From a virus: a stretch of DNA of 29,911 nt. Made by a program: the position numbers and the translations under genes. The stretch spans positions 7,381-37,291 of the IMG/VR virus record IMGVR_UViG_3300002123_000018. One strand, given 5' to 3'. Within the stretch, counting starts at the first letter, position 1. Every line of letters starts with the position of its first letter. Below are positions 5,601 to 19,374 of the stretch, piece after piece. Under the pieces are notes generated by a model, which worked only from the letters and a program-made list of their open reading frames with translations, had not been told where the DNA came from and made no database searches.

Positions 5601-5891
5601 CTAAAATGTTTTATTTGTTTCCAATGATTGATTATTCGCATTGCGATTGATTTTATCCTCAAAAGAAAAATAGTTAAATACATTCCAATATCCACATTCT
5701 CTTGCAATACACCTCATTCTTATTGATCCATGAATCATAATCTCAACAGGACAAAATTCATATAATCTTCCGTTTCCATCTTTCTTCTTTCCAAATATGA
5801 AATGAAATAACCCGTTAGGTTTTCTCTCAATCAATTTTTTCCCGCATTTTTCACAAACAAGGAATATTTTAGGTTCTGTTTCATTTATCAT
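5601..5891 (-). CDS. Small zinc-ribbon-like protein, possibly Com-like
   Basis: A 96-residue protein with ATG at 5891 and AAGGA as ribosome binding site. Cysteines at residues 13 and 16 (CEKC), 47, 61 and 66 could bind one zinc ion. The segment GSIRMRCIARECGYWN is like that of short phage zinc-ribbon proteins found among tail genes, and Com-like translational regulators (phage Mu) have a comparable ribbon. It lies between the tail terminator and the tail tube genes, 10 nt after the former. Function unknown: a nucleic-acid-binding regulator or a small structural zinc protein are both possible. Confidence 0.55.
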   Translation of the reverse strand: MINETEPKIFLVCEKCGKKLIERKPNGLFHFIFGKKKDGNGRLYEFCPVEIMIHGSIRMRCIARECGYWNVFNYFSFEDKINRNANNQSLETNKTF

Positions 5892-5900
5892 AACAATTCC

Positions 5901-6413
5901 TTAGACTTTGGCGGCCCATAACAATCTAACAGTAATTACTTTAAATTTACTATTGTCCTCAGCTTTCATTTGTCTTGATTCTGATTGAATTTGAACAATC
6001 ATTGTTCCTATATTTCCCCAAGCAAGCGTTGCAGAAGACCTATATAAAGTAATTCTTGCAAACCCGTCTGTTTGTGTTGTATCAATAAGGTAATTCATAA
6101 CCTTATCTCTTACCTGAGCAAGTTTAAATCCTTCCGAATCCTTTTTTGTACAACAATATATTTCTAAAGTAATATCTGATAGAGTTCCGAGATCAATTTC
6201 CCCCATCATCACTGCAACCCATTTATCAACTTCTATTCCCTGCACTTTAGGAGTTGTAAGATACTCATCAAACAATAAAGCTATTCCTTCAATTCTGCTG
6301 ATATTATCAACAAAATATTTTTTTATGCTGTCTCTAATATTACTTTCTCTTGCCGTAGAATCAAGTCCTGATGCTTCAATTACACTTGTTCCATATCCTG
6401 TTGCTCCGCTCAT
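5901..6413 (-). CDS. Tail terminator / tail completion protein
   Basis: A 170-residue protein with ATG at 6413 overlapping the previous stop (ATGA). Helical N-terminus (SIKKYFVDNISRIEGIALLF), a central strand region, then LAQVRDKVMNYLIDTT and a C-terminal strand ending KVITVRLLWAAKV. This layout of a helix, a sheet, and a DxV-type helix followed by strands is that of the gpU-type tail terminators, which form a hexamer on top of the finished tail tube and connect it to the head. It precedes the tail tube gene by two genes, as expected. Assigned from fold pattern and position, not from a strong motif. Confidence 0.7.
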   Translation of the reverse strand: MSGATGYGTSVIEASGLDSTARESNIRDSIKKYFVDNISRIEGIALLFDEYLTTPKVQGIEVDKWVAVMMGEIDLGTLSDITLEIYCCTKKDSEGFKLAQVRDKVMNYLIDTTQTDGFARITLYRSSATLAWGNIGTMIVQIQSESRQMKAEDNSKFKVITVRLLWAAKV

Positions 6414-6739
6414 GCAATTACCTCACTTTGCGGATTAGAAAAACTGTACCCATATTTAAAACACCAAATATATACAGTTCCTCTATTTAATTGAAAAGAA
6501 GCAATTCCCTGTTGATTCGTTGTTGATGTAGCAATCATATTCGCTCCGAGAATATCAGTTGTTATTTTTACTGTTACATCTTGAATCGGATTGCTTGAAA
6601 CAGAATCAAGGACTGTATATGTCCAATTTACAACATCATCAATTAAAGTACCACAATGAATAGCCTCAACTAATTCCCAAGTTAATCCTTCTTCAAGATC
6701 GGAATCGTTATATACTTGTCCTCGGTACTCCCAAGTCAT
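6410..6739 (-). CDS. Small protein with a carboxypeptidase-regulatory-like beta domain
   Basis: A 109-residue protein overlapping both neighbours by 4 nt. Residues about 39-109 look like a transthyretin/CarboxypepD_reg-type beta sandwich: a strand YTVLDSVSSNPIQDVTVKI, then a T-x-x-x-G-I-A-S-F turn and a strand with RGTVYIWCFKYGYSF. In other phages such domains decorate capsids or tails and may bind host glycans. The first 38 residues (MTWEYRGQVYNDSDLEEGLT) do not look like a signal peptide. Probably a virion-associated accessory protein; function not known. The domain call is by pattern only. Confidence 0.6.
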   Translation of the reverse strand: MTWEYRGQVYNDSDLEEGLTWELVEAIHCGTLIDDVVNWTYTVLDSVSSNPIQDVTVKITTDILGANMIATSTTNQQGIASFQLNRGTVYIWCFKYGYSFSNPQSEVIA

Positions 6740-6945
6740 TTTTCTTCCTTTCCTTTAATGCCTTCTAACGTCTGTAGTATAAAAGGATACACAACCATAG
6801 TCAAGTAAGATATGGCTTCTTTCTCTTCATCTGTTGAAGATTTCAATACGGCACAATCAAGTGCAGATTTAATTTTCTCAAGCCCTTCAATAGTTTCTTC
6901 AAAAATCACAACTACTGATCTTGCCTGTACCTCTAAAATTTTCAT
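6736..6945 (-). CDS. Hypothetical small helical protein
   Basis: A 69-residue protein if started at ATG 6945, which overlaps the stop of the upstream gene (ATGA) and is therefore preferred over a GTG three codons upstream. The sequence is mostly helical and charged (EETIEGLEKIKSALD, then DEEKEAISYLTMVVYP) and ends in KGKEEK. No family recognised. It belongs to the coupled chain of tail-completion genes; a small structural or chaperone role is possible. Confidence 0.6.
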   Translation of the reverse strand: MKILEVQARSVVVIFEETIEGLEKIKSALDCAVLKSSTDEEKEAISYLTMVVYPFILQTLEGIKGKEEK

Positions 6946-7517
6946 TTTGTCCACCCGTCTGCAATTTTCATCATAGCATTATCAGCAAGCCTCCAAGCAA
7001 GTCCTGAATTCCCTCTTGAAGCAGAAAAAACAAATTTCCTAAAAGAAGGTTCAAATAATGGACGCTTAGAATGAACCCCTGAACCTCTTATGCTTTTAGG
7101 AATGCCTTCTTCCATCACATTAGTGTACATAACTATACTCTTAGAAGGCCCACTTCCTGTCCAATTCTTTCCTCCTGAATCCCTTGATCCAAAAGGAATG
7201 CCCCCATAAAAACCGTCTGCTACTCTAAATCCCCCTCTTATACTCATAAGCAAATCTCCCATCAACTGCCAAAAACCCCCTCCTTTTCCGTGCTCTGCTT
7301 TCCATTCTGCATATTTAGCATTATATGCTTTATATTTTCCCACAAATTCTTGTCTTGTAAGAGAAATTCTTACTTCCTCAGCATATTTGATTGATAACTG
7401 TCTTGGTAATTCACCTGGGCCTGCAATTTGATACCGAACTTCCTTATCAACAGCCTTGATCTTGTCAAGTATGTTTTGAAGTTCTTTTTTATCGTACTGA
7501 GCATCTATTTCTATCAT
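6942..7517 (-). CDS. HK97 gp10-type tail completion / neck protein
   Basis: A 191-residue protein with ATG at 7517. It has an N-terminal helix (KKELQNILDKIKAVDKEVRY), a basic central part rich in Gly (GGGFWQLMGDLLMSIRGGF), and the C-terminal segment SKRPLFEPSFRKFVFSASRG, with R-P-L-F-x-P-S-F close to the R-P-x-x-x-P-A motif of gp10-like minor tail proteins. These proteins join the head connector to the tail. It is the last morphogenesis gene before the enzyme cassette and overlaps the following gene by 4 nt. The family is probable rather than proven. Confidence 0.65.
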   Translation of the reverse strand: MIEIDAQYDKKELQNILDKIKAVDKEVRYQIAGPGELPRQLSIKYAEEVRISLTRQEFVGKYKAYNAKYAEWKAEHGKGGGFWQLMGDLLMSIRGGFRVADGFYGGIPFGSRDSGGKNWTGSGPSKSIVMYTNVMEEGIPKSIRGSGVHSKRPLFEPSFRKFVFSASRGNSGLAWRLADNAMMKIADGWTK

Positions 7518-7544
7518 ACTTTATTCCGTTAGAGAAAATACACT

Positions 7545-7913
7545 TCAATTTATAAACCCATTTAGTATTGTTTCAATTTTATATTTCTCAATTCCTTTAA
7601 CAGGAAGAAGACAATCTTTTTTTAATTCAATTTCTGATTTAAACAGCCTTGGTGCAATTGTTATTTCCTTCCCTTTCTGTTTATAAATCTTATAAATATC
7701 TGCTGTCCCTTCTTTAAGAAAGATTGGGATTGCTACATTTAATTCCTCAGTAAGAACTTCATTGTTAAACATAAACATTTTCCATTTAGTTTTTGCTACT
7801 TCATTAAAATTTCTATCTTCCAATACTTTCACATCACACTCAATTCCAACAAATGATTCTATTGTTTTTTCAGTCCTACTATCAGCTAAAGGAATAATAA
7901 ACACAGTCAGCAT
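7545..7913 (-). CDS. Small glycosyltransferase-derived protein lacking the DxD motif
   Basis: A 122-residue protein whose ATG shares one base with the upstream stop (TAATG). It reads like a shortened GT-A (family 2) domain: a first strand VFIIPLADSRTEKTIESF, then KTKWKMFMFNNEVLTEEL in place of the usual TxWxxxxDADE-x-L motif, and IYKIYKQKGKEITIAPRLFK like the Y-R-I-P-R...R-L-F segment of GT2 enzymes. The DAD metal-binding residues are replaced by FNN (residues 49-51), and most of the N-terminal nucleotide-binding half is missing. It is unlikely to be an active transferase; it could be a relic or a regulatory/binding partner. Last gene of the cassette, 27 nt before the neck gene. Confidence 0.5.
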   Translation of the reverse strand: MLTVFIIPLADSRTEKTIESFVGIECDVKVLEDRNFNEVAKTKWKMFMFNNEVLTEELNVAIPIFLKEGTADIYKIYKQKGKEITIAPRLFKSEIELKKDCLLPVKGIEKYKIETILNGFIN

Positions 7914-8530
7914 TATCTTTTCTCCAATGTGAAGAACCCATGAGCTTTAGGAATATGAATATAACTTTCTTTAATTCCATCTACATGATATGAAAAATTT
8001 ATCACTTGCCATCCTACTGTAGAAAAAAATGTCCCCCAAAATGCTGCACTTTCACAAATCAAATGGGATTTATCAAGGTTGTTTACTTCTGCATTATACT
8101 TCCCATTTTCTCCTAAAGGAATAACAGCAAACAAAGTGCTTGTGTGTAACTTCTGTAAAACCTCTGCTAAATCCCTCAAAGGAATGTGTTCAAAAACATC
8201 CTTTGCTATACAGAAATCAAAAGAAGAAGTTTCCAATAAACTAGGAGGGCGGCAGAAAGCTTTAACATCTTCAGGCACACACTTTAACGCATAGTCTGAA
8301 ATATCAATTCCCCATGCCTCTCTACGCAAAATTCGTAATGCTTTAACTAAGTATCCTTTTGAACAGCCAAAATCTAAAATTGTTTGTTCCTTTTTAATCT
8401 GAAGATAATCAATCAAAGTCATTGCAAGAGGAATTGTAAGCTCAGGCACCCAGCGATATTGCTGATAAGCACTCTTACCCGACTCCAAACCTTCTTCATA
8501 ATATTCACGATCATAAAAACTTGAGTTCAT
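7913..8530 (-). CDS. Class I SAM-dependent methyltransferase
   Basis: A 205-residue protein. The chosen start is ATG 8530 (TAATG overlap with the upstream stop, AGGAG ribosome binding site); an upstream TTG would put the ribosome binding site inside the gene. Motif I is ILDFGCSKG (residues 51-59), the acidic residue binding the ribose follows in GIDISDYA, and FDFCIAKDVFEHIPLRDLAEVL is the usual motif after the 4th strand. This is the Methyltransf_11/23-type fold that modifies small molecules, sugars or peptides. Target unknown; its place between a radical-SAM gene and a GT-like gene points to the cassette product. Confidence 0.85.
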   Translation of the reverse strand: MNSSFYDREYYEEGLESGKSAYQQYRWVPELTIPLAMTLIDYLQIKKEQTILDFGCSKGYLVKALRILRREAWGIDISDYALKCVPEDVKAFCRPPSLLETSSFDFCIAKDVFEHIPLRDLAEVLQKLHTSTLFAVIPLGENGKYNAEVNNLDKSHLICESAAFWGTFFSTVGWQVINFSYHVDGIKESYIHIPKAHGFFTLEKR

Positions 8531-9369
8531 TATTTCACTCCTAAACAATTCTTACAAAGATCATGGGGCAAATCCTTTTCTCTTAAACGAGTATAAAAAT
8601 CATTTGCTTTTGAATAAATATCTTCAGGAACATCAGTCATAATATTCCCAAATATAATATCTTCTTCAAGGCACATACAACACGGGAGTACATTGCCTGT
8701 CACACCTATAAACAAATGACCAAAATCAGCATAAGGACACCCATCAAACTTGACACAGTTAGGTTCATCAATTAAACCTGTCCAAGGGTTAATACAATCG
8801 TTGATTCCAATTGTTAACCTGTCTTCAGGAACTTTTGTTTTCCAAATTGTTCCCCACATATTCAAATCATCTTTTGTGATAAATCTTGTGACATGAGAAG
8901 TAAAAACAAACTTGATGTGCTCATACTTCTTTTCTCTACTATTCAATGCCTTGATAATCAATTCATCAAGTTTTGAATAATCATTTCTTTCTCCATTAAA
9001 ATTAAAAAAATGATAAGAAATGAAAAGCCAAGTTAGATTAGGAAGTCTATTCAAAAAATCAAGGAAGTCCTCTGTCAGTAATAACCCGTTTGTATATAGA
9101 TTAAATCTGAATTCAGGCTTTCTCATTGCAACCTTAATCATAAAATCCTTTAAATTACAATTAGTTAGCGGCTCCCCGTCTTTGTGCCATATGACAGTCG
9201 GAGGATAGCCTAATCTATCTTCTTCATTCTTTAAAGGAGCAATGTATTTATCAAGGACAACATCAAAAACTTCTTTTGACATTACTTGTCTCTTGCGTTT
9301 CATTAAATGTTGTGGGCATTCACTACATGCTAAATTACAGCAGTTGGAAGACTCGATTTGAATATTCAT
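8530..9369 (-). CDS. Radical SAM protein with C-terminal SPASM-like cysteine region
   Basis: A 279-residue protein. The Fe-S motif CX3CX2C is at Cys11, Cys15, Cys18 (CNLACSEC). A KDGEP segment around residue 85 is the GGEP-type SAM-binding motif. The C-terminal part has more cysteines (CPYADFGHLFIGVTGNVLPC, then CMC and CKNC), as in SPASM/twitch domains that bind extra Fe-S clusters. Such enzymes use SAM radical chemistry on peptides or sugars (for example RiPP maturation or dehydrogenation). No precursor peptide gene was found nearby. The ATG overlaps the preceding stop (TAATG) with GAGG as ribosome binding site. Oxygen-sensitive cofactors suggest an anaerobic host. Confidence 0.85.
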   Translation of the reverse strand: MNIQIESSNCCNLACSECPQHLMKRKRQVMSKEVFDVVLDKYIAPLKNEEDRLGYPPTVIWHKDGEPLTNCNLKDFMIKVAMRKPEFRFNLYTNGLLLTEDFLDFLNRLPNLTWLFISYHFFNFNGERNDYSKLDELIIKALNSREKKYEHIKFVFTSHVTRFITKDDLNMWGTIWKTKVPEDRLTIGINDCINPWTGLIDEPNCVKFDGCPYADFGHLFIGVTGNVLPCCMCLEEDIIFGNIMTDVPEDIYSKANDFYTRLREKDLPHDLCKNCLGVK

Positions 9370-10373
9370 TATAACGCCTCTGGAATAATAAAACCTAAGT
9401 TATCATTCATAAGTTTCAATATGTCCTCTTCCTGATTCAATTCATGTACTATTCCTCTATAACTTTCTGGAACAAATTCTTTCCAAAGTTTATCTTCTCG
9501 TGCAATCCACATTGGAGCACATGATTTAACAAAATGGTCATCCACTCTATGTTTTTTCCAATCGTAGGCACGGGTTCCACCCCACCGATGGATAAACTGA
9601 GGATCAGCTTTACTTCCATAATAAGTACCTTCAGGAGCAGTGTGCCCAGGAAACTGCATATAAATATGATCTACAGGCACTCTCGCTTCTTTCCATTCTC
9701 CCTGCAATCTACAATATAACCATTGTCCAGGTTCAAACCATGCTGCTTCAGGAACTCCTCTTACTATAGCATCTTTCTGAACATCTGTCGGATTTTTAAT
9801 TCCTCTTGTTTCAGCAAAACACCCCACAACATCTTTAATTGTATTATCCATCCCAGGAGTATTATCAGGTTTATTTCCTCTAGGATGCCAAAACATTCCT
9901 TCATTATTTGCCCTTGCTTCTTTATGGTATTGTTGAAGCATATCTACTCGATAAAGAGTAGCAGAAGGATTGATATTATAATGATGATCTCCCTCATGCC
10001 AAAAGAAACCCGCAAGCCCTATTGTTGGTTCATCTTTCATAAAATTAACATACCAATCAAGCCATCCCACCTTCATAGCTTGTGTATCCGTTTCCATTGC
10101 AAATAAAAAATCATACCCTTTGCCTTCAATTGCTTCTAATATCTCCTCAAGAGCTGTAGCATGACTATGTTTTCGTCTCACACAAGGAATTACTGTTATA
10201 TTATGACCCAAATCAGATTCAGTAACAGCTTTTATTGAAGGATGTCCAGGCCAAGTTTCTGCAATATAAATATCAGGCTCAATTATATTCTCTAGTGTCT
10301 GTAAACTATGAACTGCTATCTGCAAATATTTTGCTGTGTGCCCATGTGCGATTGCAATTGCCACCTTTGTCAT
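9369..10373 (-). CDS. GT-A-like glycosyltransferase
   Basis: A 334-residue protein. Start chosen at ATG 10373, which has a perfect AAGGAGG 8 nt upstream and follows the previous stop by one base; a longer reading (to 10424) is not needed. The N-terminus VAIAIAHGHTAKYLQIAVHS is the first strand and helix of a GT-A fold, METDTQ (residues 93-98) is a likely DxD-type metal/nucleotide site, and SATLYRVDMLQQY corresponds to the acceptor-side segment of family 2 enzymes. The sugar donor and acceptor are unknown. The C-terminal 150 residues are aromatic- and His-rich and not recognised. Confidence 0.72.
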   Translation of the reverse strand: MTKVAIAIAHGHTAKYLQIAVHSLQTLENIIEPDIYIAETWPGHPSIKAVTESDLGHNITVIPCVRRKHSHATALEEILEAIEGKGYDFLFAMETDTQAMKVGWLDWYVNFMKDEPTIGLAGFFWHEGDHHYNINPSATLYRVDMLQQYHKEARANNEGMFWHPRGNKPDNTPGMDNTIKDVVGCFAETRGIKNPTDVQKDAIVRGVPEAAWFEPGQWLYCRLQGEWKEARVPVDHIYMQFPGHTAPEGTYYGSKADPQFIHRWGGTRAYDWKKHRVDDHFVKSCAPMWIAREDKLWKEFVPESYRGIVHELNQEEDILKLMNDNLGFIIPEAL

Positions 10374-10374
10374 T

Positions 10375-11046
10375 TCAATTTCCTCCTTCGGATTGAATGT
10401 TAGAAAGTTCATCTTCAGACACAATTTTTGTGCCTATCCAATACCAACTGCCTATTTTTTGTAAAGGCATTCCAACTTCCTCTACAAATTTATTCACTGT
10501 ATTAAAAACATCAGGATTATTCTCATGATAGTCATCCCAAGCAATACACCAATCCCCTTTTGTGTTTCTATTTTCCCAAGCTCTCCAAGTATCTAACTCA
10601 ACTTCAGGCAAAAAATGACAAGCATCTATAAAGCATAAATCAACTTGATTGGGCATAACACACTCATAAGAATTAACAATTGTTAAAGAATAATTTTGGC
10701 AATTGTGCATAAATGGAGTATACCCTGTCGGAAGATAAGAAAAATCTCCGTTCTGAAATACCCCTGAAATATCAACCCCGTATATCCTTGCTTCAGGATT
10801 CAATTTGCACAAAAGTAAGGAAGTCCACCCTACATTAACACCCATCTCAACAATGACTTTCGGTTTGAATAGCATACTTAAAGTTGCAGCAGCAATACAT
10901 CCGCATCGTTCTACAGTATCCCAAACAAATCTTTCATAAGTACGATACCGTTGAAATGCAGTATCTTCAGCACTTATGAAAGCAGGAAACTCATAAAACT
11001 TTTCTTTATCAAAACTCTCAATTGCGAATTTTTGCCAGTCTTTCAT
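10375..11046 (-). CDS. Class I SAM-dependent methyltransferase (Methyltransf_24 type)
   Basis: A 223-residue protein with ATGA overlap to the upstream gene. Motif I is VIVEMGVNVGWTSLLL (from about residue 64), GVDISG follows as the SAM-ribose acidic motif, and VDLCFIDACHFLPEVELDTW is the D-x-x-H motif typical of the CmcI/Methyltransf_24 group (sugar and antibiotic O-methyltransferases). Probably a paralogue, or at least the same subfamily, as the next gene upstream. A methyl-transferring step on a sugar chain is the most economical role. Confidence 0.82.
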   Translation of the reverse strand: MKDWQKFAIESFDKEKFYEFPAFISAEDTAFQRYRTYERFVWDTVERCGCIAAATLSMLFKPKVIVEMGVNVGWTSLLLCKLNPEARIYGVDISGVFQNGDFSYLPTGYTPFMHNCQNYSLTIVNSYECVMPNQVDLCFIDACHFLPEVELDTWRAWENRNTKGDWCIAWDDYHENNPDVFNTVNKFVEEVGMPLQKIGSWYWIGTKIVSEDELSNIQSEGGN

Positions 11047-11840
11047 TTTACAGCCTTAACTTTCTTTGCTTTCAATTCATTTTCTTTTCTCAATAAAACT
11101 GTATTCCCTTGCCAAAAATCAATCTTTTCCCAATTCTTATTTACTTCTACCCACTCAGCAATTGCTCGTTTTACCCCTCCTTGAATTTTGTCTGTTTCAT
11201 TTCCTTCAAACAAAGCATCATCCATCAGCATATTACTTGTTATTAAAGAAGCTGATTTCATTTCCGACATCGTATGCTCATAGGTATGAGAAGTATCAAT
11301 GAAAATCATATCATATCTCTGATCCTTTGCCACCTTCTCATTAAGAAAAGTCACACTGTCATCATATTTAAATCTCCAAATAGTGTTCATATACTGTTCA
11401 TATCTCACTCCTGTCATTCCAAGAGGATTTATTTCTACTGATTGTAAATAATTCCCGCTCTTCTCAATATATGCAAGGAACACAGAGGTCGAAATTCCTG
11501 AATCTCCTCCTACACCTAACTCAAGCATGATTTTAGGCTGAACTACGTCTAAAGCCCCCTCATAACTCGCGGAAAGGGGAACTCTAAGCATATTTACAAA
11601 CCTATGTGCTTGAAGTTCAGTTTCAAACTCAAAACAGCCTATCACCTTATCAACACATTGTTGAACAATATCATTGGTGTTGGGTTGATATTCTGCAAGG
11701 TGTTTATAGTTTTTCCATTCCTCAATTTGTCGAACAGTCACATTATGCCCGTATTGTAAAAGCCATTCTTTTGTTTGCTGAATTTGATTTTCTTTGCTTC
11801 CATAATATTTCAGCAACCATTCTTTAGGCATTATAAACAT
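11043..11840 (-). CDS. Class I SAM-dependent methyltransferase (Methyltransf_24 type)
   Basis: A 265-residue protein. Two ATG codons lie 6 bases apart; the second (11840) is 8 nt after AAGGAGG and is preferred, since the first is only 2 nt away from it. A helical N-terminal 100 residues precede motif I, IMLELGVGGDSGISTSVF. QSVEINPLG is the second motif and YDMIFIDTSHTYEHTMSEMK the D-x-x-H motif. It thus has the same core as the 10375-11046 enzyme, with an extra N-terminal extension. Lys-rich C-terminus (KENELKAKKVKAVK). Target unknown. Confidence 0.82.
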   Translation of the reverse strand: MFIMPKEWLLKYYGSKENQIQQTKEWLLQYGHNVTVRQIEEWKNYKHLAEYQPNTNDIVQQCVDKVIGCFEFETELQAHRFVNMLRVPLSASYEGALDVVQPKIMLELGVGGDSGISTSVFLAYIEKSGNYLQSVEINPLGMTGVRYEQYMNTIWRFKYDDSVTFLNEKVAKDQRYDMIFIDTSHTYEHTMSEMKSASLITSNMLMDDALFEGNETDKIQGGVKRAIAEWVEVNKNWEKIDFWQGNTVLLRKENELKAKKVKAVK

Positions 11841-11853
11841 TATCATTTCCTCC

Positions 11854-12795
11854 TTAAATAAAATTCTTCATTGCTGAAGGATTTATAATTTCATGCACTA
11901 AATCATTTTGTTTTGTAAAAACACAATGTTCACAGTTGTTTGTTTTAAAAGGAACAATCTCTGTTTTATATTCATCTTTTAACTCTTCCATCTTACACCA
12001 TCTATATTTTTCATGAAAACTTCTTTCAGCATCATTATTCAACACAACAGAGGAACATCTGTAAACAAACTCATCGTGAAGAAGGAAGGGTTTTACCATT
12101 CCCCAATAACATAATTTTGGTTTCTCAAATATCTTTGCTTGGTAAAAAAAAGGTTCCCCCCACTTTTCAACCCATCTTACATATAGTTTATTATTTTTCT
12201 GTTGCTGCTCCTCAGTTGTTTGGCAATCAGGGACAACACGCACATAGGCAGGGGAATATTTTTTAACATGAGTTTTCAATTTGAGCATACTTTTTAAAGT
12301 AGATTTAGCATTAATAACATAGCTAAAACCAAGTGTTGTGTCTTTAGGCAGTTCAGGGATTTCTACTTCCTCAACATAATCTAAACAATTCATCGAAATG
12401 CGAATCCACTTCAGGAAATTAAGTGCATTTTTCTCTATCTTATCAAAGCCTAAACCATTAGTAATAAAGCCCTGTTCAAATCCTGCTATTCCTGATGCAA
12501 TTATTACTTGATTTATGTTGGAATATAAAGAAGGATCACCTCCTCCTGTCCACTCAACTGTTTTTGCTCCTAAAGACTTCATATCAGCAAGAAAATCTAT
12601 AAGTTTTATATACTCCAACTCTTCTTGTTTGTCTCTGTTTGTATTAGAGCAAAAACAACAATTCAACTGACATCTTGAAGTAGGTGCTATTTGAATGGAA
12701 ATAGGAGAAACTCTATTATGTTGAAGTAACTCAACAATATTGGGATGATGTATAAGCTTATTTCCCATTGAAGTAAATTCTGCCTCTTTGTTCAT
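11854..12795 (-). CDS. Radical SAM protein (second copy type)
   Basis: A 313-residue protein. CX3CX2C is at Cys42, Cys46, Cys49 (CQLNCCFC). TVEWTGGGDPSLY is a GGEP-like motif. In the C-terminal part the cysteines in KLCYWG, YRCSSV, RWCKM and NCEHC could hold an auxiliary Fe-S cluster (SPASM-like). The start ATG 12795 has GGGGAAAGT in front and overlaps the previous gene by 38 nt. It is more like the MoaA/SPASM branch than the other radical-SAM gene here, and the two are clearly not recent duplicates. A modifying reaction on a peptide or sugar substrate of the cassette is likely, but the substrate is unknown. Confidence 0.85.
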   Translation of the reverse strand: MNKEAEFTSMGNKLIHHPNIVELLQHNRVSPISIQIAPTSRCQLNCCFCSNTNRDKQEELEYIKLIDFLADMKSLGAKTVEWTGGGDPSLYSNINQVIIASGIAGFEQGFITNGLGFDKIEKNALNFLKWIRISMNCLDYVEEVEIPELPKDTTLGFSYVINAKSTLKSMLKLKTHVKKYSPAYVRVVPDCQTTEEQQQKNNKLYVRWVEKWGEPFFYQAKIFEKPKLCYWGMVKPFLLHDEFVYRCSSVVLNNDAERSFHEKYRWCKMEELKDEYKTEIVPFKTNNCEHCVFTKQNDLVHEIINPSAMKNFI

Positions 12796-13489
12796 ACTTT
12801 CCCCTTTCAGCTTCTATAACAGATTGTATTTCTTGAAATAGTATAAAATGACCTTCAGGCGTTAAATGAGTTGTATCAACAACATATTGATCATATTTAT
12901 TCCAACAATCAATGTAAGTGATGTTGTTATATTGCTTTGCAAAACACTCAATTACATTCTTGTACTCTTCAGCTTGAATTCTCCAATGAGAATGAATTCT
13001 TTTACTTTCTACATTCGGTTTACTTAACCCAATAACAATAACTGAGAATCCCTCAAGCATAGGTAAAACAGATGCGAAGATTTCTCCAAATTGTTCTGCT
13101 GTAAGAGTTTGAAAATATTGATTATTTTGTTCATTCAAATCCTTTGCAGCTAACAGCATCTTCGGAAGAACATATGCTGTAAACAAAGAATCTAACCCAT
13201 AGAAATTAAGATATTGGCAACACCAGTAAATGAAATTCTTTGCTGGATGTGAATAACACTCAACAGCCCCTACATTTAGAATCACCCAGTTCTTTCTATG
13301 TCGTTCTTTAAGATAGTTCTGCAAAATATTTTTTACGTTCATAACAGTTAATCCGTTTATCCAATTTCCCTCAATAAGAAAAGGATACTTTTCTTGCAAA
13401 TAATCTAAAGTGCTTCCTTTGCCTAGAGTAATATCCTCATCAGGCATTGGAGTGTATAAAGTTGAGTTTGCAAAGACTGTTAAGTTCAT
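12758..13489 (-). CDS. SGNH/GDSL-like hydrolase or acyl-esterase
   Basis: A 243-residue protein, start ATG 13489 (ATGA overlap; GGAAGG ribosome binding site). It follows the SGNH block pattern: Ser9 in VFANSTLY (block I), a glycine in NWINGLTV (block II), LNVGAVECYSHP where block III normally has G-x-N-D, and DTTHLTPEGH (Asp205, His208) as block V. The block III Asn is not in the usual place, so activity is not certain. SGNH enzymes often add or remove O-acetyl or other acyl groups from sugars, which fits the glycosyltransferase neighbours. No signal peptide; cytoplasmic. Confidence 0.7.
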   Translation of the reverse strand: MNLTVFANSTLYTPMPDEDITLGKGSTLDYLQEKYPFLIEGNWINGLTVMNVKNILQNYLKERHRKNWVILNVGAVECYSHPAKNFIYWCCQYLNFYGLDSLFTAYVLPKMLLAAKDLNEQNNQYFQTLTAEQFGEIFASVLPMLEGFSVIVIGLSKPNVESKRIHSHWRIQAEEYKNVIECFAKQYNNITYIDCWNKYDQYVVDTTHLTPEGHFILFQEIQSVIEAERGKYEQRGRIYFNGK

Positions 13490-14172
13490 AAACCTTCCCG
13501 TAAATACTGTTCATAGTAATAATCTTCTTTGTGATGTTTTGGATAAGTTGCTCCTAAAGCAACATCCTCATAATGGAGCTTTGCACACAGTTTTCCAATT
13601 GTGTCTCTCTTATCTTTTACTGCTCTGTGGTAATGATTGAGCTTAGGAGTAGTTAAATTACAATAAATGTTTTTGTGTCCTGTTATTTGTTCATGAAGTT
13701 TTCGCACATACTTAATTGGACTTTCTATTCTTGTCATTCTAGCCTGCCAATCAGGAGCATTGCGAAAATCATTCTCTGCTTTTGTCTTCTCAAAATCATG
13801 CCAATCAATTCTAGGAAATGCAACAACATCATAAGCATCAATTAAAGAGTCCTTTATCCATCTTAATTGATGAAATTCTTTTTCATCTATAGTTTCATCC
13901 GCATCGAAGTAAACCATCCATTTGCTATCTGGATGAAATTCTTTCGTAAGTTCTCTCAACTGAGTTCTTGCAGGCCCATATCCTTCAGTCTGGATAATTT
14001 TACTCACGACAACTAAAGCTCCCTGATCTGTTGCATACTCTACTGATCCATCTGTACTACCAGAATCAACAATTATAATTCCTCCGTCAGCTACTTTTTT
14101 TACCCAATTAAACCACTTGGGGAGTTGTTTAATCTCATTAAAAATGTTTGAGCACACTGTTAATTTTCTCAT
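13486..14172 (-). CDS. Family 2 (GT-A) glycosyltransferase
   Basis: A 228-residue protein with complete GT2 hallmarks: LTVCSNIFNEIKQLPKWF (first strand and helix), IIIVDSGSTDGSVE (nucleotide-binding segment, residues 32-45), GPARTQLREL, and the metal-binding DxD in VYFDADETIDE (Asp90, Asp92). A basic segment and a His-rich end (LNHYHRAVKDKR) follow. It is like the compact WaaE-type and related enzymes that add sugars to lipopolysaccharide cores or proteins. TAATG start overlap with the gene upstream. Donor and acceptor unknown. Confidence 0.87.
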   Translation of the reverse strand: MRKLTVCSNIFNEIKQLPKWFNWVKKVADGGIIIVDSGSTDGSVEYATDQGALVVVSKIIQTEGYGPARTQLRELTKEFHPDSKWMVYFDADETIDEKEFHQLRWIKDSLIDAYDVVAFPRIDWHDFEKTKAENDFRNAPDWQARMTRIESPIKYVRKLHEQITGHKNIYCNLTTPKLNHYHRAVKDKRDTIGKLCAKLHYEDVALGATYPKHHKEDYYYEQYLREGL

Positions 14173-16229
14173 TAGATTGTTTCCTCCAACTTCTTAATAT
14201 TCTCTAAAATTGTGTTTGGGTTGTGTGACCCAGTGCACTTTATTGGACACTCCCTTACTCCTGCACTGCAAGGCCCCAAACCCATACAATTTTTTATATA
14301 GTCTGGAGACATCTCAATGAGTTTTCCCTTAACCTGCAAAGGTTTTACAACTGATGCATTTCCACTTCCAAATAAGCATACTTGTGATACTCCTAATGCC
14401 CCACAAAGATGTGATATAAAAGAATCAACTGTTACAGCAATAGCAGCTTTCGAGACTACCCAAGCACTTTCTCTAAAAGATAATTTACCTCTCAAATCAA
14501 GATCAGCTTTTGCAGGAAAATCATCTTTCCCTCCCACTTGAATAGTAAAATATCTGTCTCTCAAACCTTCAGCAACATCTCCCATATATTCGTAGGTGCG
14601 GAACTCAGCATCCCCGCCAGTTGTGTGGAGAATACAAATAGGGAGCTTTGTGTCTAAAATTTCATCAGCAATTGGATTCTCAGGAACTTTCAAATCAATA
14701 AAGAAATCATCAGGCTCATCAATCATTAATACTTTCCAATAGAAATCAGCAAGGATTGAATTGCTGTTTCTTCCCCAGTGTCCAGGAAGTATTCTCTCTC
14801 CGTGAGGATTATAAACAAACTTGTATTCCTGTAGTTTTGCTTCATCCCAATCAAATATCTCATCAATATAAGGATTGCCTACAATAATGTCCTGATACTT
14901 CTTTTGTGTCATGTAATAAAAAGGAATGTCAGGATTTCTTTTTTTAAGGTCTTTAAAGCAACGGGTAGTCATAATCACATCCCCTGCTGAAGAGTGTTGA
15001 GCAAAAAGAATAGCCTCCTTCCGTGCCTTCTCCTTGCGTACAGGAGACACATAATTACATGCTTTATCAAGAAGGTTCGTTATATCTGAAACTCTTTGTA
15101 ACCACTCAGTTGCTCTTCGTATCCCTCGATATTTTAAATCTTTTCTAAGAGTAACATCTTGTACTGATTTCATTGCTCTTACAAGATCAGGAAAAGAACA
15201 AGCTTTGCTTTCAATGAATGTAGAAGCTCCATTTGCTGCTAAGAGAGGAATATAAGCTAATTCTGTAGATGCAACACCTATTCCGGCCCCTTCTTCAATT
15301 AATTCTATGTGTGCTGTATTATTTGAAGCAATTACAGGTGTTCCACAAAGCATAGATTCAAGGACCGTCCAACTCAAACCTTCCTGCAAAGAAACATTCA
15401 CAACACAATCAACAGCATTATAGACTTCAATAAGAGTTTCCGTAGAATAGTAGTGCCCCTGTTTTTTAACGAGCACATCTCCTAGTTTTCCTCCACAATC
15501 CCTTATGTACTGTTCTATATTAAAAATTCCTCTTTGACTAGCAAGTTCAGTGTGCAAATATAAAGCTGAATTAGGAATTTCCTTTTTAACTTCAAAAAAT
15601 GCTTTTATTACTCGAAGAGGGTCTTTCCTAAATTGATTGTGACCAAAAAAACCAAAAAGCAAAGTGTCCTCATTCACATGTTCATGAAATAATTTTTCTC
15701 TTGTTTCTTTCTTTTTTGCATCAGAAAACAATTTAAATTTTTTTGCATCAAAAAGAGGGGGTCTAAAATAATAAAGATTTGGAACACTCTCTACTAACAT
15801 CTCATAGCCATATGCTGAATATACACACGGAATATCAATTGGATTAAAAAGAGATAGCCAATCCTGTCTAACAAAATGTGCATCATAAGGAAAAATTGAA
15901 GCCCAAATAAATTTATCTCTTCTTTTTAGTTCAAGTAACTGAGGATAGACTTTAGAATAGGTCCAAATATCTAATCCGATAAAACAAACAACATCAAATT
16001 TATTTTGATTCAAAAAAGAAACAAGCTGTGAAGCACCAAAATCATCATAAGGATTATTCCCTCCTTCAATGATTCTAACTTCAGAAGAAACAGGACACGA
16101 AACGGGAAAAGCAGCAAAAACTGTTATATCATACTTAGTTAAATCAATTTGTTGTAAACAAGCGTTAATCATATGGGAATTTCCTGAATGGCCATAAGGA
16201 TGATCCCCCACCAATAAAAGTTTCTTCAT
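14172..16229 (-). CDS. Two-domain glycosyltransferase (GT4 + GT9 heptosyltransferase-like)
   Basis: A 685-residue protein. ATG 16229 is chosen because AGGAG lies 10 nt upstream; a TTG further upstream (16250) precedes that site. Residues 1-395 are a GT-B GT4 domain: an N-terminal VGDHPYGHSGNS, FGFFGHNQFRKDPLRVIKAF, and the E-x7-E motif with Glu283 and Glu291 (QEGLSWTVLESMLCGTPVIA). Residues 405-685 are a GT9-type domain: ILFAQHSSAGDVIMTTRCFK, ICILHTTGGDAE, and AVTVDSFISHLCGALGVSQV, with Cys648, Cys654, Cys661 and Cys665 at the end, as in GT9-like enzymes. GT9 enzymes usually transfer heptose to lipopolysaccharide. Two transferases in one chain suggest two successive sugar additions. First gene of the cassette, 37 nt after the head stopper gene. 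Confidence 0.87.
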   Translation of the reverse strand: MKKLLLVGDHPYGHSGNSHMINACLQQIDLTKYDITVFAAFPVSCPVSSEVRIIEGGNNPYDDFGASQLVSFLNQNKFDVVCFIGLDIWTYSKVYPQLLELKRRDKFIWASIFPYDAHFVRQDWLSLFNPIDIPCVYSAYGYEMLVESVPNLYYFRPPLFDAKKFKLFSDAKKKETREKLFHEHVNEDTLLFGFFGHNQFRKDPLRVIKAFFEVKKEIPNSALYLHTELASQRGIFNIEQYIRDCGGKLGDVLVKKQGHYYSTETLIEVYNAVDCVVNVSLQEGLSWTVLESMLCGTPVIASNNTAHIELIEEGAGIGVASTELAYIPLLAANGASTFIESKACSFPDLVRAMKSVQDVTLRKDLKYRGIRRATEWLQRVSDITNLLDKACNYVSPVRKEKARKEAILFAQHSSAGDVIMTTRCFKDLKKRNPDIPFYYMTQKKYQDIIVGNPYIDEIFDWDEAKLQEYKFVYNPHGERILPGHWGRNSNSILADFYWKVLMIDEPDDFFIDLKVPENPIADEILDTKLPICILHTTGGDAEFRTYEYMGDVAEGLRDRYFTIQVGGKDDFPAKADLDLRGKLSFRESAWVVSKAAIAVTVDSFISHLCGALGVSQVCLFGSGNASVVKPLQVKGKLIEMSPDYIKNCMGLGPCSAGVRECPIKCTGSHNPNTILENIKKLEETI

Positions 16230-16266
16230 AGATTGTTTTCTCCTATTCAATTGTATTTAAAACATT

Positions 16267-16896
16267 TTATCTTGTATCTTGGCTCATCTCAATAACACTA
16301 ATTGCAGGATAGATGCTTTTCTTAATCACGTCAACTTGATAATATTCTCCAGAACGTGCTTGGAACCTATCTAACAATTTTATGTTCTCTCCGCTCGCTA
16401 TGTACATCTCTATTCTCGATACTGTCAGCAGGCCAAGCTCATCTCGGTCTGATAATTGATTGCCGGATACCTCAACCAACACACTATTAATTCCGGCTTT
16501 AATAGATTCCCATATTTGAACTTTATGATACGTCTGATCTTCCCAAACTTCACCTGATGATCGTAAAATCTCACCACTAACAATATTTGCTTTAAGAAAT
16601 TGTGTTTCGTAAATAACAATAGAATCCTGAAACATATCAGGAATTTTTGAAGCAACAAGAACCCTTTTACTATTGCTAAGTTCAAGAACATCCCCTTCTA
16701 CAACTATTGTATCATACGACAATGCCCCTTCAAGTATTGTCTCTTTTGCAAAAGCTGATGGATTTCCAATTCCTGAAGAAGCTTTTGGAATATCATAGAT
16801 TAAAAATTCCCCCGAGAAATTGCCTGTGTCTCTCCTTGTGATAAAAGAAACCCCAACATCTTCTAAGGCTTTTTTTACATCGGCTCCAACAGACAC
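16267..16896 (-). CDS. Head-closure / head stopper-type protein
   Basis: A 209-residue protein with a GTG start (GAGGA upstream, no in-frame ATG nearby). Mostly beta strand: EFLIYDIPKA, ETILEGALSYDTIVVEGDVL, KVQIWESIKAGINSVLVEVS and ARSGEYYQVDVIKKSIYPAI. The strand, loop and final G-x-Y-Y-x-V-x-x-I pattern fits head stopper proteins (SPP1 gp16-like, gpFII-like) that close the connector after DNA packaging. It lies directly after the helical adaptor-like gene and before the inserted cassette. No strong motif; assignment rests on position and fold pattern. Confidence 0.58.
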   Translation of the reverse strand: MSVGADVKKALEDVGVSFITRRDTGNFSGEFLIYDIPKASSGIGNPSAFAKETILEGALSYDTIVVEGDVLELSNSKRVLVASKIPDMFQDSIVIYETQFLKANIVSGEILRSSGEVWEDQTYHKVQIWESIKAGINSVLVEVSGNQLSDRDELGLLTVSRIEMYIASGENIKLLDRFQARSGEYYQVDVIKKSIYPAISVIEMSQDTR

Positions 16897-16901
16897 TTTT
16901 A

Positions 16902-17357
16902 TTAATCCTCTTCATTTGGATGTACACTTACTAAAATCTCAGAACAAGAAGAAACATCTCTTCCTAAAGCATCATAAGCAAATCCTGCTCCTACTACATG
17001 CGAAAACATTTGATATGCTGATACATTTGCAAATTTATAAGGATCATCATCCATTGCCTGTCTAAACTCATCATCCATTGCCTGAACAATGGATTGAAGA
17101 TTTTTAAACTTGTCTTGTAATGAAAGTTGCTTGAATTTAAAAGACAAAAGATTTTCTGCTAGAAGAGCAAAAAATAAAGCCCGCTTAGTTCGCTTAATCA
17201 GCCATAGGATTTGAAAGTCGTCAGATGTAGGGAAAATAAACGGGCTCAATTCCCTTTGAGCATTTGAAATTGCATCAGTATAATCATCCTCAACAAAATT
17301 GGAAGAAAGAGCTTTTAACTCTCTCTTAATCAATATAACAGCATCAGAAGAAGTCAT
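16902..17357 (-). CDS. Head-tail connector (adaptor) protein
   Basis: A 151-residue, almost fully helical protein: SSDAVILIKRELKALSSNF, then DDYTDAISNAQREL, TKRALFFALLAENLLSFKF and DKFKNLQSIVQAMDDEFRQA. This is the usual look of gp6/gp15-type connector proteins that bind the portal ring. Order (capsid, small genes, connector, stopper) agrees. The start ATG 17357 lies one base after the previous stop and has only a weak upstream AAGAAAG site, so it probably depends on coupling. Confidence 0.68.
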   Translation of the reverse strand: MTSSDAVILIKRELKALSSNFVEDDYTDAISNAQRELSPFIFPTSDDFQILWLIKRTKRALFFALLAENLLSFKFKQLSLQDKFKNLQSIVQAMDDEFRQAMDDDPYKFANVSAYQMFSHVVGAGFAYDALGRDVSSCSEILVSVHPNEED

Positions 17358-17358
17358 C

Positions 17359-17622
17359 TTACTTTACTTTCTTCTTTAATTTAACAGCAGATTTAACACT
17401 TACTTCTTCTTTGGCTTCTTGATTACTTCCTTCTTTGGCTTCTTCCCTGTTTTCTTCTGTCCCATTAACAACCTCCTTATCTATCTCAAGTATTCGCACA
17501 CAACGAACATCCTTCAATAAACCTTGCAGGTCAGCGGGAAAAGGAGCAGAATAAACTCCTCCTTTTTCCCACACCTGCCCACCTTTGACTGTCACCAGTA
17601 ATTGTATCTTTTTAATATTCAT
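17359..17622 (-). CDS. Hypothetical head-region protein
   Basis: An 87-residue protein with a strong AAGGAGG ribosome binding site. The first 50 residues are mixed strand and loop (IQLLVTVKGGQVWEKGGVYS), the rest is a highly charged Glu/Lys tail with two similar short units (EEAKEGSNQEAKEE) ending KLKKKVK. No family recognised. It sits between the capsid-associated protein and the connector gene, where many siphophages carry a small gene of unknown role. Confidence 0.6.
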   Translation of the reverse strand: MNIKKIQLLVTVKGGQVWEKGGVYSAPFPADLQGLLKDVRCVRILEIDKEVVNGTEENREEAKEGSNQEAKEEVSVKSAVKLKKKVK

Positions 17623-17641
17623 TTCTGATTGCCCTCCTTCT

Positions 17642-18133
17642 TTAAATATCAGGCTCTACTTCAACAACAATACCGGGACTCTGAATCTTTTCAGTAGGAC
17701 TTCCGCTGCCTGAATAGATAGCTGTCCAATCTAAAACATCCCCGATAACAAATGAAGCAGTTGCCTGATTTATAACAGGTTGAATTATCCCTGTATCCCC
17801 TGCTTCTGCCCACGTAGTCTTTTGACCTATTGTAGCAGACTCCCCTGAAACATGACCAATAGATGGCTTCGTTGTGAAAATTGAAACCTTATTAATAGTC
17901 ACTTCTCCAGAAAATCTAGGAGTATCAGCAACAGAAGCAGACGATCCGTCTTTAGCAACAGAAAGAATTACATTTGTAACTCTGCCCTTAAATCGAGCAA
18001 TTCCAAGAGGTCTGCTAACAGAAGCAGCAAACTCACCTGAAATTATATCAGTAAAAGGAGTTAAAACTTCCGTTGCCACCTGTTTTCTAAAATCAGAAGA
18101 AGGAAGTGGCCCTTGATAACCTTTTCTTGCCAT
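17642..18133 (-). CDS. Capsid-associated structural protein
   Basis: A 163-residue, beta-rich protein just after the major capsid gene, with AGAAGGAGGTAGATAA before ATG. Small residues and short strands dominate (VTNVILSVAKDGSS, GEVTINKVSIFTTKPS). The FVIGDVLDW segment (residues 128-136) recalls FVVGDDL and FVVGETL in the decoration and capsid genes nearby, which suggests a common small beta fold. No catalytic motif. A capsid decoration, cement or spike role is likely, but this is inferred from position and composition. Confidence 0.6.
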   Translation of the reverse strand: MARKGYQGPLPSSDFRKQVATEVLTPFTDIISGEFAASVSRPLGIARFKGRVTNVILSVAKDGSSASVADTPRFSGEVTINKVSIFTTKPSIGHVSGESATIGQKTTWAEAGDTGIIQPVINQATASFVIGDVLDWTAIYSGSGSPTEKIQSPGIVVEVEPDI

Positions 18134-18150
18134 TTATCTACCTCCTTCTA

Positions 18151-19374
18151 TTAAGTTACCGTCAGAACATAGATTGCATCCCTATTAAGCAGAACCGGCA
18201 AACCCTTATTCTGAACACGCAGCCAAATGCCATCTGGATCCCAAGTAGTCTCAGTATCAATTTGCATTCCCCTTAAACGATTAAGACCAAAAGGAGCCCG
18301 AATAAACTTAGCTATTTTCTGTCCTTCAACCGCAGAAGCAAACATACAAAACTTTGTTTTATCAAGGAATTTGCGAGTCATAGTGACCTTATCTTCCCCT
18401 GATTTGAAAGACGCTGTAGGAGCAGACGACACAGTAACCGTTCCAGCCTCAACATCTATAGAAGCAATCGTTTCATCTTCATATGTGCCTGCTGAAATGT
18501 CATGAAATCTCAAAGTTTCCCCTACAACAAAGTCCGTAGCATCATCTACACTTACAGACGTGGTAGAAGCTCCTGTAACTTTTGCAGTCAACCACGCAGA
18601 AATTACATACTGCTCATCATAGATCATTAGATTAGGAATATTCAGCAAAGAACCAAGAACTGCCACCGGACGGGTAAACAAATCCCCCTGACCGAAAGTA
18701 GATTTTGAGAGCAAGGTCTGAATTCCCTTATCCATAATCAACATCTGTAGAACTTCAGTCGTACACAAAGCATAATCAATCTTTGCCCCTATCGAATTCT
18801 GAAGAACTAACTGAGCATCCATGATGTCCTGAAGAACATTCACAGACGAACCCGTATCCCACTGATATGCAGCAGCAAGAGTCACAAGATTTGCAGAAGG
18901 AACACTATAATCAAGGGAGATTTTTACTCCGCCGGGAGCGGAATAAGTCATTGTTCCGCCTGAAAGCATTTGAGCAAACATCCACTCTTTACGACGATCA
19001 CAACGATTCCGCAACATCAAAGTCTCTCTTGCAAGACGAGCCTGAGAAGAAAAATACTGATCAACAGTTCCCTCTTTGCGAAGGTTATTCAGGAACACTT
19101 CATCAAAGTACATCTTCTCTTTCCAGTAAGCTGTCATAGCTGATTCCTGTTTCACCCCTATAGGAGCAACAGTTTGAGAAGGAGCACCAGGAGCAGCAAA
19201 TGGTGTCATCCCTCTATTCCCTACCTGACTTTCCCACTTAATTGTATCTGAATCTGCATCTTCTTCAGAAAACATATTCATCAAAACCAAATTGGGAGAA
19301 GTCGTGAACGCGGTTATTAGTCCCTGAAGTCGCTCAAGTCTTAGATCAGGAATATCACTTTTACCTGTCGGCAT
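18151..19374 (-). CDS. Major capsid protein, lambda gpE type
   Basis: A 407-residue protein with AAAAAGGAGGTGAATTC before ATG. The N-terminus (MPTGKSDIPDLRLERLQGLI) and the segments TIKWESQVGNRGMTPFAAPG, MTAYWKEKMYFDEVFLNNL, RRKEWMFAQMLSGG, and the C-terminal TTWDPDGIWLRVQNKGLPVL follow the lambda gpE (Phage_cap_E) family, an HK97-fold coat protein. The family normally has about 340-350 residues; the extra length is a clear insert at residues 262-334, a small beta-rich domain with DFVVGETLRFHD. It forms the icosahedral shell after scaffold-directed assembly and proteolysis. Confidence 0.9.
   Translation of the reverse strand: MPTGKSDIPDLRLERLQGLITAFTTSPNLVLMNMFSEEDADSDTIKWESQVGNRGMTPFAAPGAPSQTVAPIGVKQESAMTAYWKEKMYFDEVFLNNLRKEGTVDQYFSSQARLARETLMLRNRCDRRKEWMFAQMLSGGTMTYSAPGGVKISLDYSVPSANLVTLAAAYQWDTGSSVNVLQDIMDAQLVLQNSIGAKIDYALCTTEVLQMLIMDKGIQTLLSKSTFGQGDLFTRPVAVLGSLLNIPNLMIYDEQYVISAWLTAKVTGASTTSVSVDDATDFVVGETLRFHDISAGTYEDETIASIDVEAGTVTVSSAPTASFKSGEDKVTMTRKFLDKTKFCMFASAVEGQKIAKFIRAPFGLNRLRGMQIDTETTWDPDGIWLRVQNKGLPVLLNRDAIYVLTVT

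Follow-up and report, generated by a model that had tools for sequence, protein, structure and literature searches.

Glycosyltransferases (GTs) that are encoded by a virus and act on its own particle are known from mycobacteriophages and chloroviruses. The accessible text on mycobacteriophages Che8 (gp110), Corndog (gp38) and Myrna has their own GTs glycosylating capsid and tail-tube proteins (PMC12363180, PMC12619734), and that on chlorovirus PBCV-1 describes a capsid glycan built in the cytoplasm, with A064R combining two rhamnosyltransferases and an O-methyltransferase (PMC7019647). Pelagimyophages, in the accessible part of their description, carry cassettes of GTs and radical S-adenosylmethionine (SAM) enzymes in a hypervariable region with tail-fibre genes, read there as modifying the host O-chain (PMC7029224). 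The subject here is a block of ten genes, c10 to c1, in a 29,911-nucleotide (nt) stretch, below called the window, that comprises bases 7381-37291 of the 37,345 bases of IMG/VR virus record IMGVR_UViG_3300002123_000018. The block lies between two conserved flanking genes, here given the positional names “stopper” and “gp10-like”, and with a probability of roughly 0.6, as judged from sequence comparison, it would be an exchangeable virion-glycosylation island.

As in the mycobacteriophages the GTs are virus-encoded, here known from the genes alone; the difference, by the accessible text, is that here they belong to an exchangeable multi-enzyme island with radical SAM, methyltransferase and sugar-precursor genes, and a tblastn search of c10 against 50,697 phage records matched three records, none of them a mycobacteriophage. 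With the chloroviruses the island would share a capsid glycan made by the virus in the cytoplasm, fused GT domains and an O-methylated sugar, and the GT4 half of c10 matches protein B736L, whereas those are viruses of eukaryotic algae with an N-linked glycan, for which the accessible text names no radical SAM gene. The pelagimyophages differ in being T4-like myophages, with no bracket of a GT4-GT9 enzyme and c1 described in the accessible part of that work. Tetrasphaera phage TJE1 also has a GT, a few genes before terL and portal, whose neighbours are annotated as methyltransferase, epimerase and nucleotidyl transferase, but this enzyme (26% identical over 36% of c10) has no match to the GT9 half and is encoded before the terminase instead of in the stretch that joins head and tail genes. 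Similarly Microcystis phage Mae-JY09 has an RfaG-like GT between its major capsid protein and head-tail adaptor, although the identity is 30% over 17% of c10 and the annotation gives one GT and four unnamed genes. Finally, the GT9 half of c10 aligns with lipopolysaccharide (LPS) heptosyltransferases, and HldE-type domains occur in relatives of the window, but the c10 GT9 is fused to a GT4, sits in a phage and scores under the equivalog cut-offs. No title or abstract on such an island was found in the open-licence PubMed Central literature, and the island is most likely a variant of phage virion glycosylation not described before in the literature searched.

This reading is supported by the recurrence of the block at one site. 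A scan with the head protein gave 56 viral loci, three of them identical to the window; a profile scan with it retained 80 of 206 loci, and a profile scan with c10 found relatives at 78 viral loci, some spanning only part of c10. The gene maps show two prevailing states, in which the stopper is followed by gp10-like with at most small open reading frames (ORFs) in between, or by an island in the order stopper, c10, c9, variable genes, c1, gp10-like. Among 32 intervals that are complete at either end and differ from one another in their c10 DNA (near copies such as L008/L056 and L082/L085 included), c10 starts at most 60 nt from the stopper in 31 and 82 nt from it in the remaining one, c9 is present in 27, c1 in all, and c1 abuts or overlaps gp10-like in 29. 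Counted by distinct head protein, the interval with c10 measures 2.4-11.2 kb (29 lineages); where c10 is absent, 36 lineages span -27 to 671 nt and a single further one has 3061 nt. The smallest island is c10 plus c1 alone (L008, L056, L127, L174). At the other end stands L120, where each of the ten genes of the window recurs, in unaltered order and at 34-64% identity, c10 being cut by the contig end and an HNH ORF being inserted between c4 and c3; L064 and L073 have the order c7-c6-c4-c3-c2 in common. A c5 homologue of L064 (20840) lies downstream of gp10-like and so outside the island. Outside the 32 intervals, extra HldE-type genes stand between flank and c10 in L061, L069, L071 and L081 (incomplete intervals), a single 201-aa ORF does so in L104, and in L060 no stopper was found in the gene map. 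The same arrangement in relatives means that the block is not there by chance, and the possibility that its homologues occur only as scattered single genes, which the preliminary description had named as telling against it, is ruled out by synteny: the homologues form islands. The terminase had no match in the 50,697 phage records, and for the major head protein there were 11 distant matches, with 25-30% identity and no more than 51% covered; a scan of genome contigs gave only three contigs of metagenome-assembled genomes, filed under the unrelated taxa Melioribacter, Desulfobacterales and Bacteriovoracaceae, which would be mis-binned viral contigs, and no host was found.

The cargo turns over between relatives. 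In 351 pairs, which are not independent of one another, from 27 of the 32 islands (28 listed, one without a head protein), cargo similarity correlates with c10 identity at rho 0.56 and with head-protein identity at 0.14; the coefficient is 0.13 for c10 against head protein, 0.43 for stopper against head protein and 0.47 for stopper against c10. At head-protein identity above 75% the mean cargo Jaccard index is 0.11 (26 pairs), and in these same pairs c10 identity is also higher, with a mean of 61%. Since cargo tracks c10 more than it tracks the head protein, the island is, to judge from these correlations, exchanged between lineages. Homing-endonuclease-like ORFs (GIY-YIG/NUMOD3, HNH) lie inside islands at L094:12024-12872 and L120:5869-6711, and relatives of the HNH one occur elsewhere in the L004 genome (record L186, 2926-3570 and 9526-10005); such ORFs are a possible means of island movement.

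By its Pfam matches the cargo between c10/c9 and c1 is glycan-like. The 622 cargo ORFs were clustered and one representative from each of 29 clusters annotated, plus L061:13788, with matches to B12-binding radical SAM, GT4, GT8, GT2, methyltransferase, CTP_transf-like and PfkB families and to DegT aminotransferase, NAD epimerase, carbamoyltransferase and pyruvyltransferase; L106:16918 matches only a domain of unknown function. In L061 the two genes immediately before c10 match rfaE_dom_II (1.7e-47), the heptose-1-phosphate adenylyltransferase domain, and rfaE_dom_I (1.9e-64), the heptose-7-phosphate kinase domain.

Within the window itself the constant first enzyme is c10. Its GT4 domain scores 47.5 bits against a Pfam cut-off of 27 and its Glyco_transf_9 domain 29.4 bits against a curated cut-off of 22, and in a profile search of the PDB the GT9 half aligns with the GT9 structure 3tov and with the LPS heptosyltransferases 2gt1 and 1psw, while the GT4 half matches the GT B736L (3oy2) at 1.2e-9, which we take to be a chlorella-virus protein. 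Its motifs include EGLSWTVLE at 290, fitting the EX7E motif of the GT4 family, as well as SSAGD and DSFISH. A heptose-type donor is a reasonable guess and no more. The GT4-GT9 fusion, the GT2, the two radical SAM proteins and the three methyltransferases of the preliminary description are all borne out by Pfam. Both radical SAM proteins have CxxxCxxC and exceed the PF04055 cut-off of 29.5 bits (31.3 for c3, 31.4 for c7), and c3 adds a SPASM domain (PF13186, 38.2 bits against 21.5) for which c7 has no match; c5 is slightly over the cut-off for PF04989 and slightly under that for PF13578. Two labels find no confirmation. As an SGNH-like esterase c8 falls far short, the GDSL match (E 0.093) reaching 13.7 bits against 32.9 and the GDS block being absent with D..H present, and for c4, called a GT-A-like enzyme, neither Pfam nor PHROGs nor the sequences of the PDB gave a match, and DxD is absent. 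The c7 cluster has 17 distinct sequences and the c8 cluster three.

The small last gene had been called a GT relic, a label ruled out by a high-confidence model and by a family in which 41 distinct proteins are 110 aa or longer. Built from 37 sequences, the AlphaFold2 model of c1 (predicted local distance difference test score, pLDDT, 95.9) superposes on ThuS with Z 12.6 and a root-mean-square deviation of 2.4 over 120 residues, on WrtF with Z 11.4 and on SunS with Z 11.3 (Foldseek E 2.8e-4), nucleotidyltransferases of related fold following at Z of about 9. A GT-A fold can thus be assigned to the c1 model with confidence. The DxD motif is absent, NNE standing at position 50, and c1 would perhaps act as a scaffold or targeting subunit instead of a transferase. 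A stricter count on a reduced gene map finds c1 in 26 of 29 island lineages; in the three that it missed (L062, L075, L117) the c1 match lies within an ORF overlapping gp10-like.

Table 1. Genes of the block and of its surroundings, in window coordinates.
Feature	Coordinates	Strand	Assignment	Basis
Major head protein	18151..19374	-	Comparison anchor	phrog_29, E 2.3e-34
g17642	17642..18133	-	Candidate capsid decoration protein, candidate glycan acceptor	Ser/Thr-rich (20.9%); adjoins major head protein
Upstream flank	16267..16896	-	Positional “head stopper”	Conserved flank; no PHROG or Pfam match
c10	14172..16250	-	GT4-GT9 fusion glycosyltransferase, 692 aa, island's first gene	Pfam GT4 and GT9
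c9	13486..14172	-	GT2 glycosyltransferase	Glyco_tranf_2_4 and Glycos_transf_2 above Pfam cut-off; DAD motif
c8	12758..13489	-	Possible SGNH-like hydrolase, weak	GDSL sub-threshold; D..H at 205
c7	11854..12795	-	Radical SAM enzyme	PF04055, E 2.5e-7; CQLNCCFC
c6	11043..11846	-	SAM-dependent methyltransferase, Methyltransf_24 type	Above Methyltransf_24 cut-off
c5	10375..11046	-	SAM-dependent methyltransferase, CmcI/rhamnosyl O-methyltransferase type	PF04989 (RMNT_CmcI), PF13578 (Methyltransf_24)
c4	9369..10424	-	Conserved protein	Homologues 53-64% identical in L120, L064, L073
c3	8530..9369	-	Radical SAM + SPASM enzyme	PF04055 and PF13186 above cut-off; CNLACSEC
c2	7913..8548	-	Methyltransferase, Methyltransf_23/11	Pfam; phrog_27380, E 1.1e-30
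c1	7545..7913	-	Minimal GT-A-fold protein (model), 122 aa, island's last gene	AlphaFold2 model; in 32/32 complete islands
Downstream flank	6942..7517	-	Positional “gp10-like” gene	Conserved flank; no PHROG match, no significant Pfam match

In position the block proved as previously described, with ten co-oriented ORFs between the two flanks on the minus strand, from 16250 down to 7545; position 16229, given earlier as the end of the block, is an ATG internal to the c10 ORF and its likely start. The block sits among virion genes, because the major head protein, protease, terminase, tape measure and major tail protein of the window match PHROGs. The earlier claim that it parts a head stopper from a tail-completion gene therefore stands as to location and not as to the two gene names, which are positional since neither flank has a PHROG or significant Pfam match. 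From c10 to c1 neighbouring ORFs overlap by 1-50 nt or are separated by 7-16 nt; the largest overlaps, 50 nt for c5/c4 and 19 nt for c3/c2, become smaller if the internal ATGs at about 10373 and 8530 serve as starts. Signals were scanned on both strands from 6500 to 18200 and compared with shuffled sequence. Terminator-like sites number 11 against 5.3 (standard deviation 2.2) in the shuffles, every one of them within coding sequence and none intergenic, and promoter-like sites are at chance (46 against 41.1). The tight packing claimed for a same-strand operon is thus present, and from it the block is probably co-expressed with the surrounding head and tail genes; a single transcription unit is likewise inferred from the packing, with a promoter-like site ahead of c10.

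The favoured acceptor of a glycan would be g17642, or some other head or tail protein. The gene is found in 48 of 61 head-protein lineages with c10 and in none of 37 without (Fisher 2.8e-16); from the 116 distinct head proteins, 18 with c10 unscored (eight of them also with g17642 unscored) were left out of this count. On the head-protein tree c10 needs five changes and g17642 eight, and in three independent well-supported pairs differing in c10, g17642 is concordant in 2.1 on average and opposite never. L042 has both genes within a clade mostly without either, in which L117 has c10 alone, and L136, with neither, stands among lineages having both. The AlphaFold2 model of g17642 (pLDDT 88.4) consists largely of beta structure and weakly resembles baseplate and fibre proteins of phages, TNF-like proteins (Z at most 8.5) and the KHP40 and KHP30 cement proteins (Z 7.1 and 6.9), all near background, and with no Foldseek match under E 0.001, so that the predicted fold can be called only jelly-roll-like. 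In the place of g17642, L116:7911-8471 and L078:6400-7045 hold other proteins with a GPWPS-type start, a pattern that would suit an exchange of outer domains on a shared capsid anchor. At 19393-20091 in the window, also adjoining the major head protein, lies a sub-threshold match to lambda gpD (PF02924, E 7.1e-5), and g17642 may hence be a second decoration protein. In L161 (5330-7519, also in L162) a 729-aa ORF made up chiefly of Ser and Thr stands between stopper and c1 where there is no GT island; it is possibly mucin-like and a glycosylation target, or possibly a repeat artefact.

Some phages without c10 have a different GT cluster, directly behind a large ORF that is putatively a tail-tip or fibre gene by its size and position (L179, L180, L181, L184). 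These second clusters contain GT4s, GT2-like genes and a methyltransferase, with a radical SAM enzyme related to c7 in L179 and L180 and a PIG-L deacetylase and a hexapeptide protein in L180. Strong relatives of the GT4 at L179:6669-7934, with E values of 8.5e-139 or better, are present in seven of the 21 records whose head-tail site has no c10, a count that includes the query's own record, L057 though incompletely scored, and several short records, and in none of 18 records with c10, of which G011 matches distantly (2.4e-32, 30%) and G023 trivially. The second GT4 of the cluster is found in four of 39 records, all within those seven, and the seven form one clade of the head-protein tree, so the second cluster in them may be one event. 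GT clusters near virion genes at two different places fit virion decoration. Separately, L183:5423-7860 holds a stand-alone c10 GT4 half beside a second GT4, outside the head-tail site, among ORFs that by eye are epimerase-like and sulfotransferase-like.

How the island would work can be proposed as follows. As its constant first enzyme, c10 would act on a virion protein in the cytoplasm and there start a short glycan or build its core, possibly with a heptose, given that its GT9 half is heptosyltransferase-like and that HldE-type heptose kinase/adenylyltransferase genes adjoin c10 in some relatives. The GT2 enzyme c9 would extend this core, and the variable cargo, which in the window comprises the two radical SAM enzymes, the three methyltransferases, c8 and c4, would elongate and decorate it, presumably by O-methylation and radical-based alteration of sugars. 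The purpose, we infer, is probably to alter the particle surface. Support for a protein acceptor comes from what the phages seem to do without. The initiating transferase PF02397 and the flippase PF01943, which would mark O-antigen conversion or synthesis of a surface polysaccharide de novo, are in none of 30 related records, which are possibly fragments, in a search that did not extend to GtrA and polymerases; in 14 control genomes they are matched in 9 and 13. Among 436 distinct cargo proteins, six have a stretch with mean hydropathy over 1.9 and 22 one over 1.6; for the 1531 other ORFs the numbers are 71 and 141. The missing transferase and flippase together with the few hydrophobic stretches favour a cytoplasmic protein acceptor, and GT9 itself is in all 18 records with c10 and in one of 12 others.

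The main rival is that the island remodels the host surface in infection, acting on the LPS core or another glycan, for instance in a superinfection block or so that progeny stick less to debris. Heptosyltransferases and HldE are typical of LPS cores, and so the heptosyltransferase-like GT9 half and the HldE-type genes of relatives suit this explanation, as does the fact that late genes may act on the host surface too. PHROGs place the GT matches in the moron, auxiliary metabolic and host takeover class, and the pelagimyophage GTs near tail-fibre genes are so interpreted in the accessible text of that report (PMC7029224). Against it stand the conserved site among head-tail genes, the few hydrophobic stretches in the cargo and the absence of PF02397 and PF01943, this last point not being decisive because modification of an LPS core needs none of the missing parts. 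The fixed head-tail site, the lack of these two families and the co-occurrence of a capsid-side gene make the comparative data lean to the virion, and remodelling of the host surface is judged rather unlikely, if well ahead of the other alternatives. The preliminary description had left the choice between a virion-decorating and a surface-remodelling system; such a system does fit, and the comparisons support that interpretation in part. Glycosylation of phage DNA is a quite different use of such enzymes, GTs that glucosylate phage DNA being described in the accessible text of PMC12619734, and these phages have radical SAM enzymes outside the island and, in L186 (8240-12045, the record of L004), a cluster resembling FolE, QueE and QueD by eye, which hints at 7-deazaguanine chemistry. 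A separate radical SAM ORF in that record (5644-6294) is a distant relative of c3. The block genes nevertheless stand among virion genes, and SPASM, O-methyltransferase, pyruvyl- and carbamoyltransferase cargo is glycan-like. Thymidylate synthase/hydroxymethylase (PF00303), typical of many DNA hypermodification systems, is in none of 18 island records and one of 12 others, which may be fragments, and modification of DNA bases is very improbable. Scarcely better is the idea that host-derived metabolic genes of mixed kind have gathered at a tolerant site with no single common product. It could explain a cargo as variable as the Jaccard index of 0.11 indicates, and the homing-endonuclease-like genes in some islands; it is at odds with a first and a last gene that stay constant and a second that is usually present, with the ten genes of L120 kept in unchanged order at 34-64% identity, and with the c7-c6-c4-c3-c2 order found again in L064 and L073.

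Several observations weigh against virion glycosylation itself. For c10, the scores are under the NCBIfam equivalog cut-offs for LPS heptosyltransferases I (32.7 against 185.3 bits), II (31.3 against 134.6) and III (38.4 against 170.2), the rfaE/HldE domains of L061 likewise fall under theirs, and in the minimal islands of L008 and L056 the second E of EX7E is Q, so that their GT4 half may be inactive. Nine of the 29 cargo clusters have no Pfam match at E 0.01 (L125:6269, L098:16778, L137:13804, L089:18482, L061:19666, L105:13640, L130:14659, L125:8282, L078:11269). Radical SAM genes, many of them outside the island, are about equally frequent whether c10 is present (14 of 18 records) or absent (nine of 12), which rules them out as an island marker and makes their combination with GTs, earlier called unusual, less so. 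At the ends of the island, c1 is found in eight of 37 complete intervals lacking an island, and is thus not strictly a cassette gene, and a promoter-like 10-of-12 match on the minus strand (16292-16264) lies immediately 5' of c10, which may thus have a promoter of its own. As for the acceptor, 13 of the 61 island lineages, L116 and L078 among them, lack g17642 by hidden Markov model, and the link between c10 and g17642 is not significant after counting independent changes, significance being unreachable with just three independent pairs.

With these points counted in, an exchangeable virion-glycosylation island is still the reading preferred at the probability given above. A bolder form of it, tentative and on balance to be doubted, is that of a virion serotype locus akin to a bacterial O-antigen locus, in which the GT4-GT9 enzyme and a pseudo-GT-A protein bracket a slot for cargo, the island passes between lineages, each cargo makes a glycan of its own, possibly heptose-based and radical-SAM-altered, on g17642 as a dedicated capsid-side acceptor, and in relatives without the island the second one, behind the tail-fibre gene, serves this same end. 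If virion glycosylation is the true function, it would account for the sugar genes among the head-tail genes, and the phages would possess a modular system, passed on horizontally, for diversifying the glycan of their own particle, comparable to bacterial O-antigen diversity. It would also supply many sugar-modifying enzymes, radical SAM types among them, and glycosylation of the particle would become a trait that can be tested for in uncultured tailed phages and is perhaps common there.

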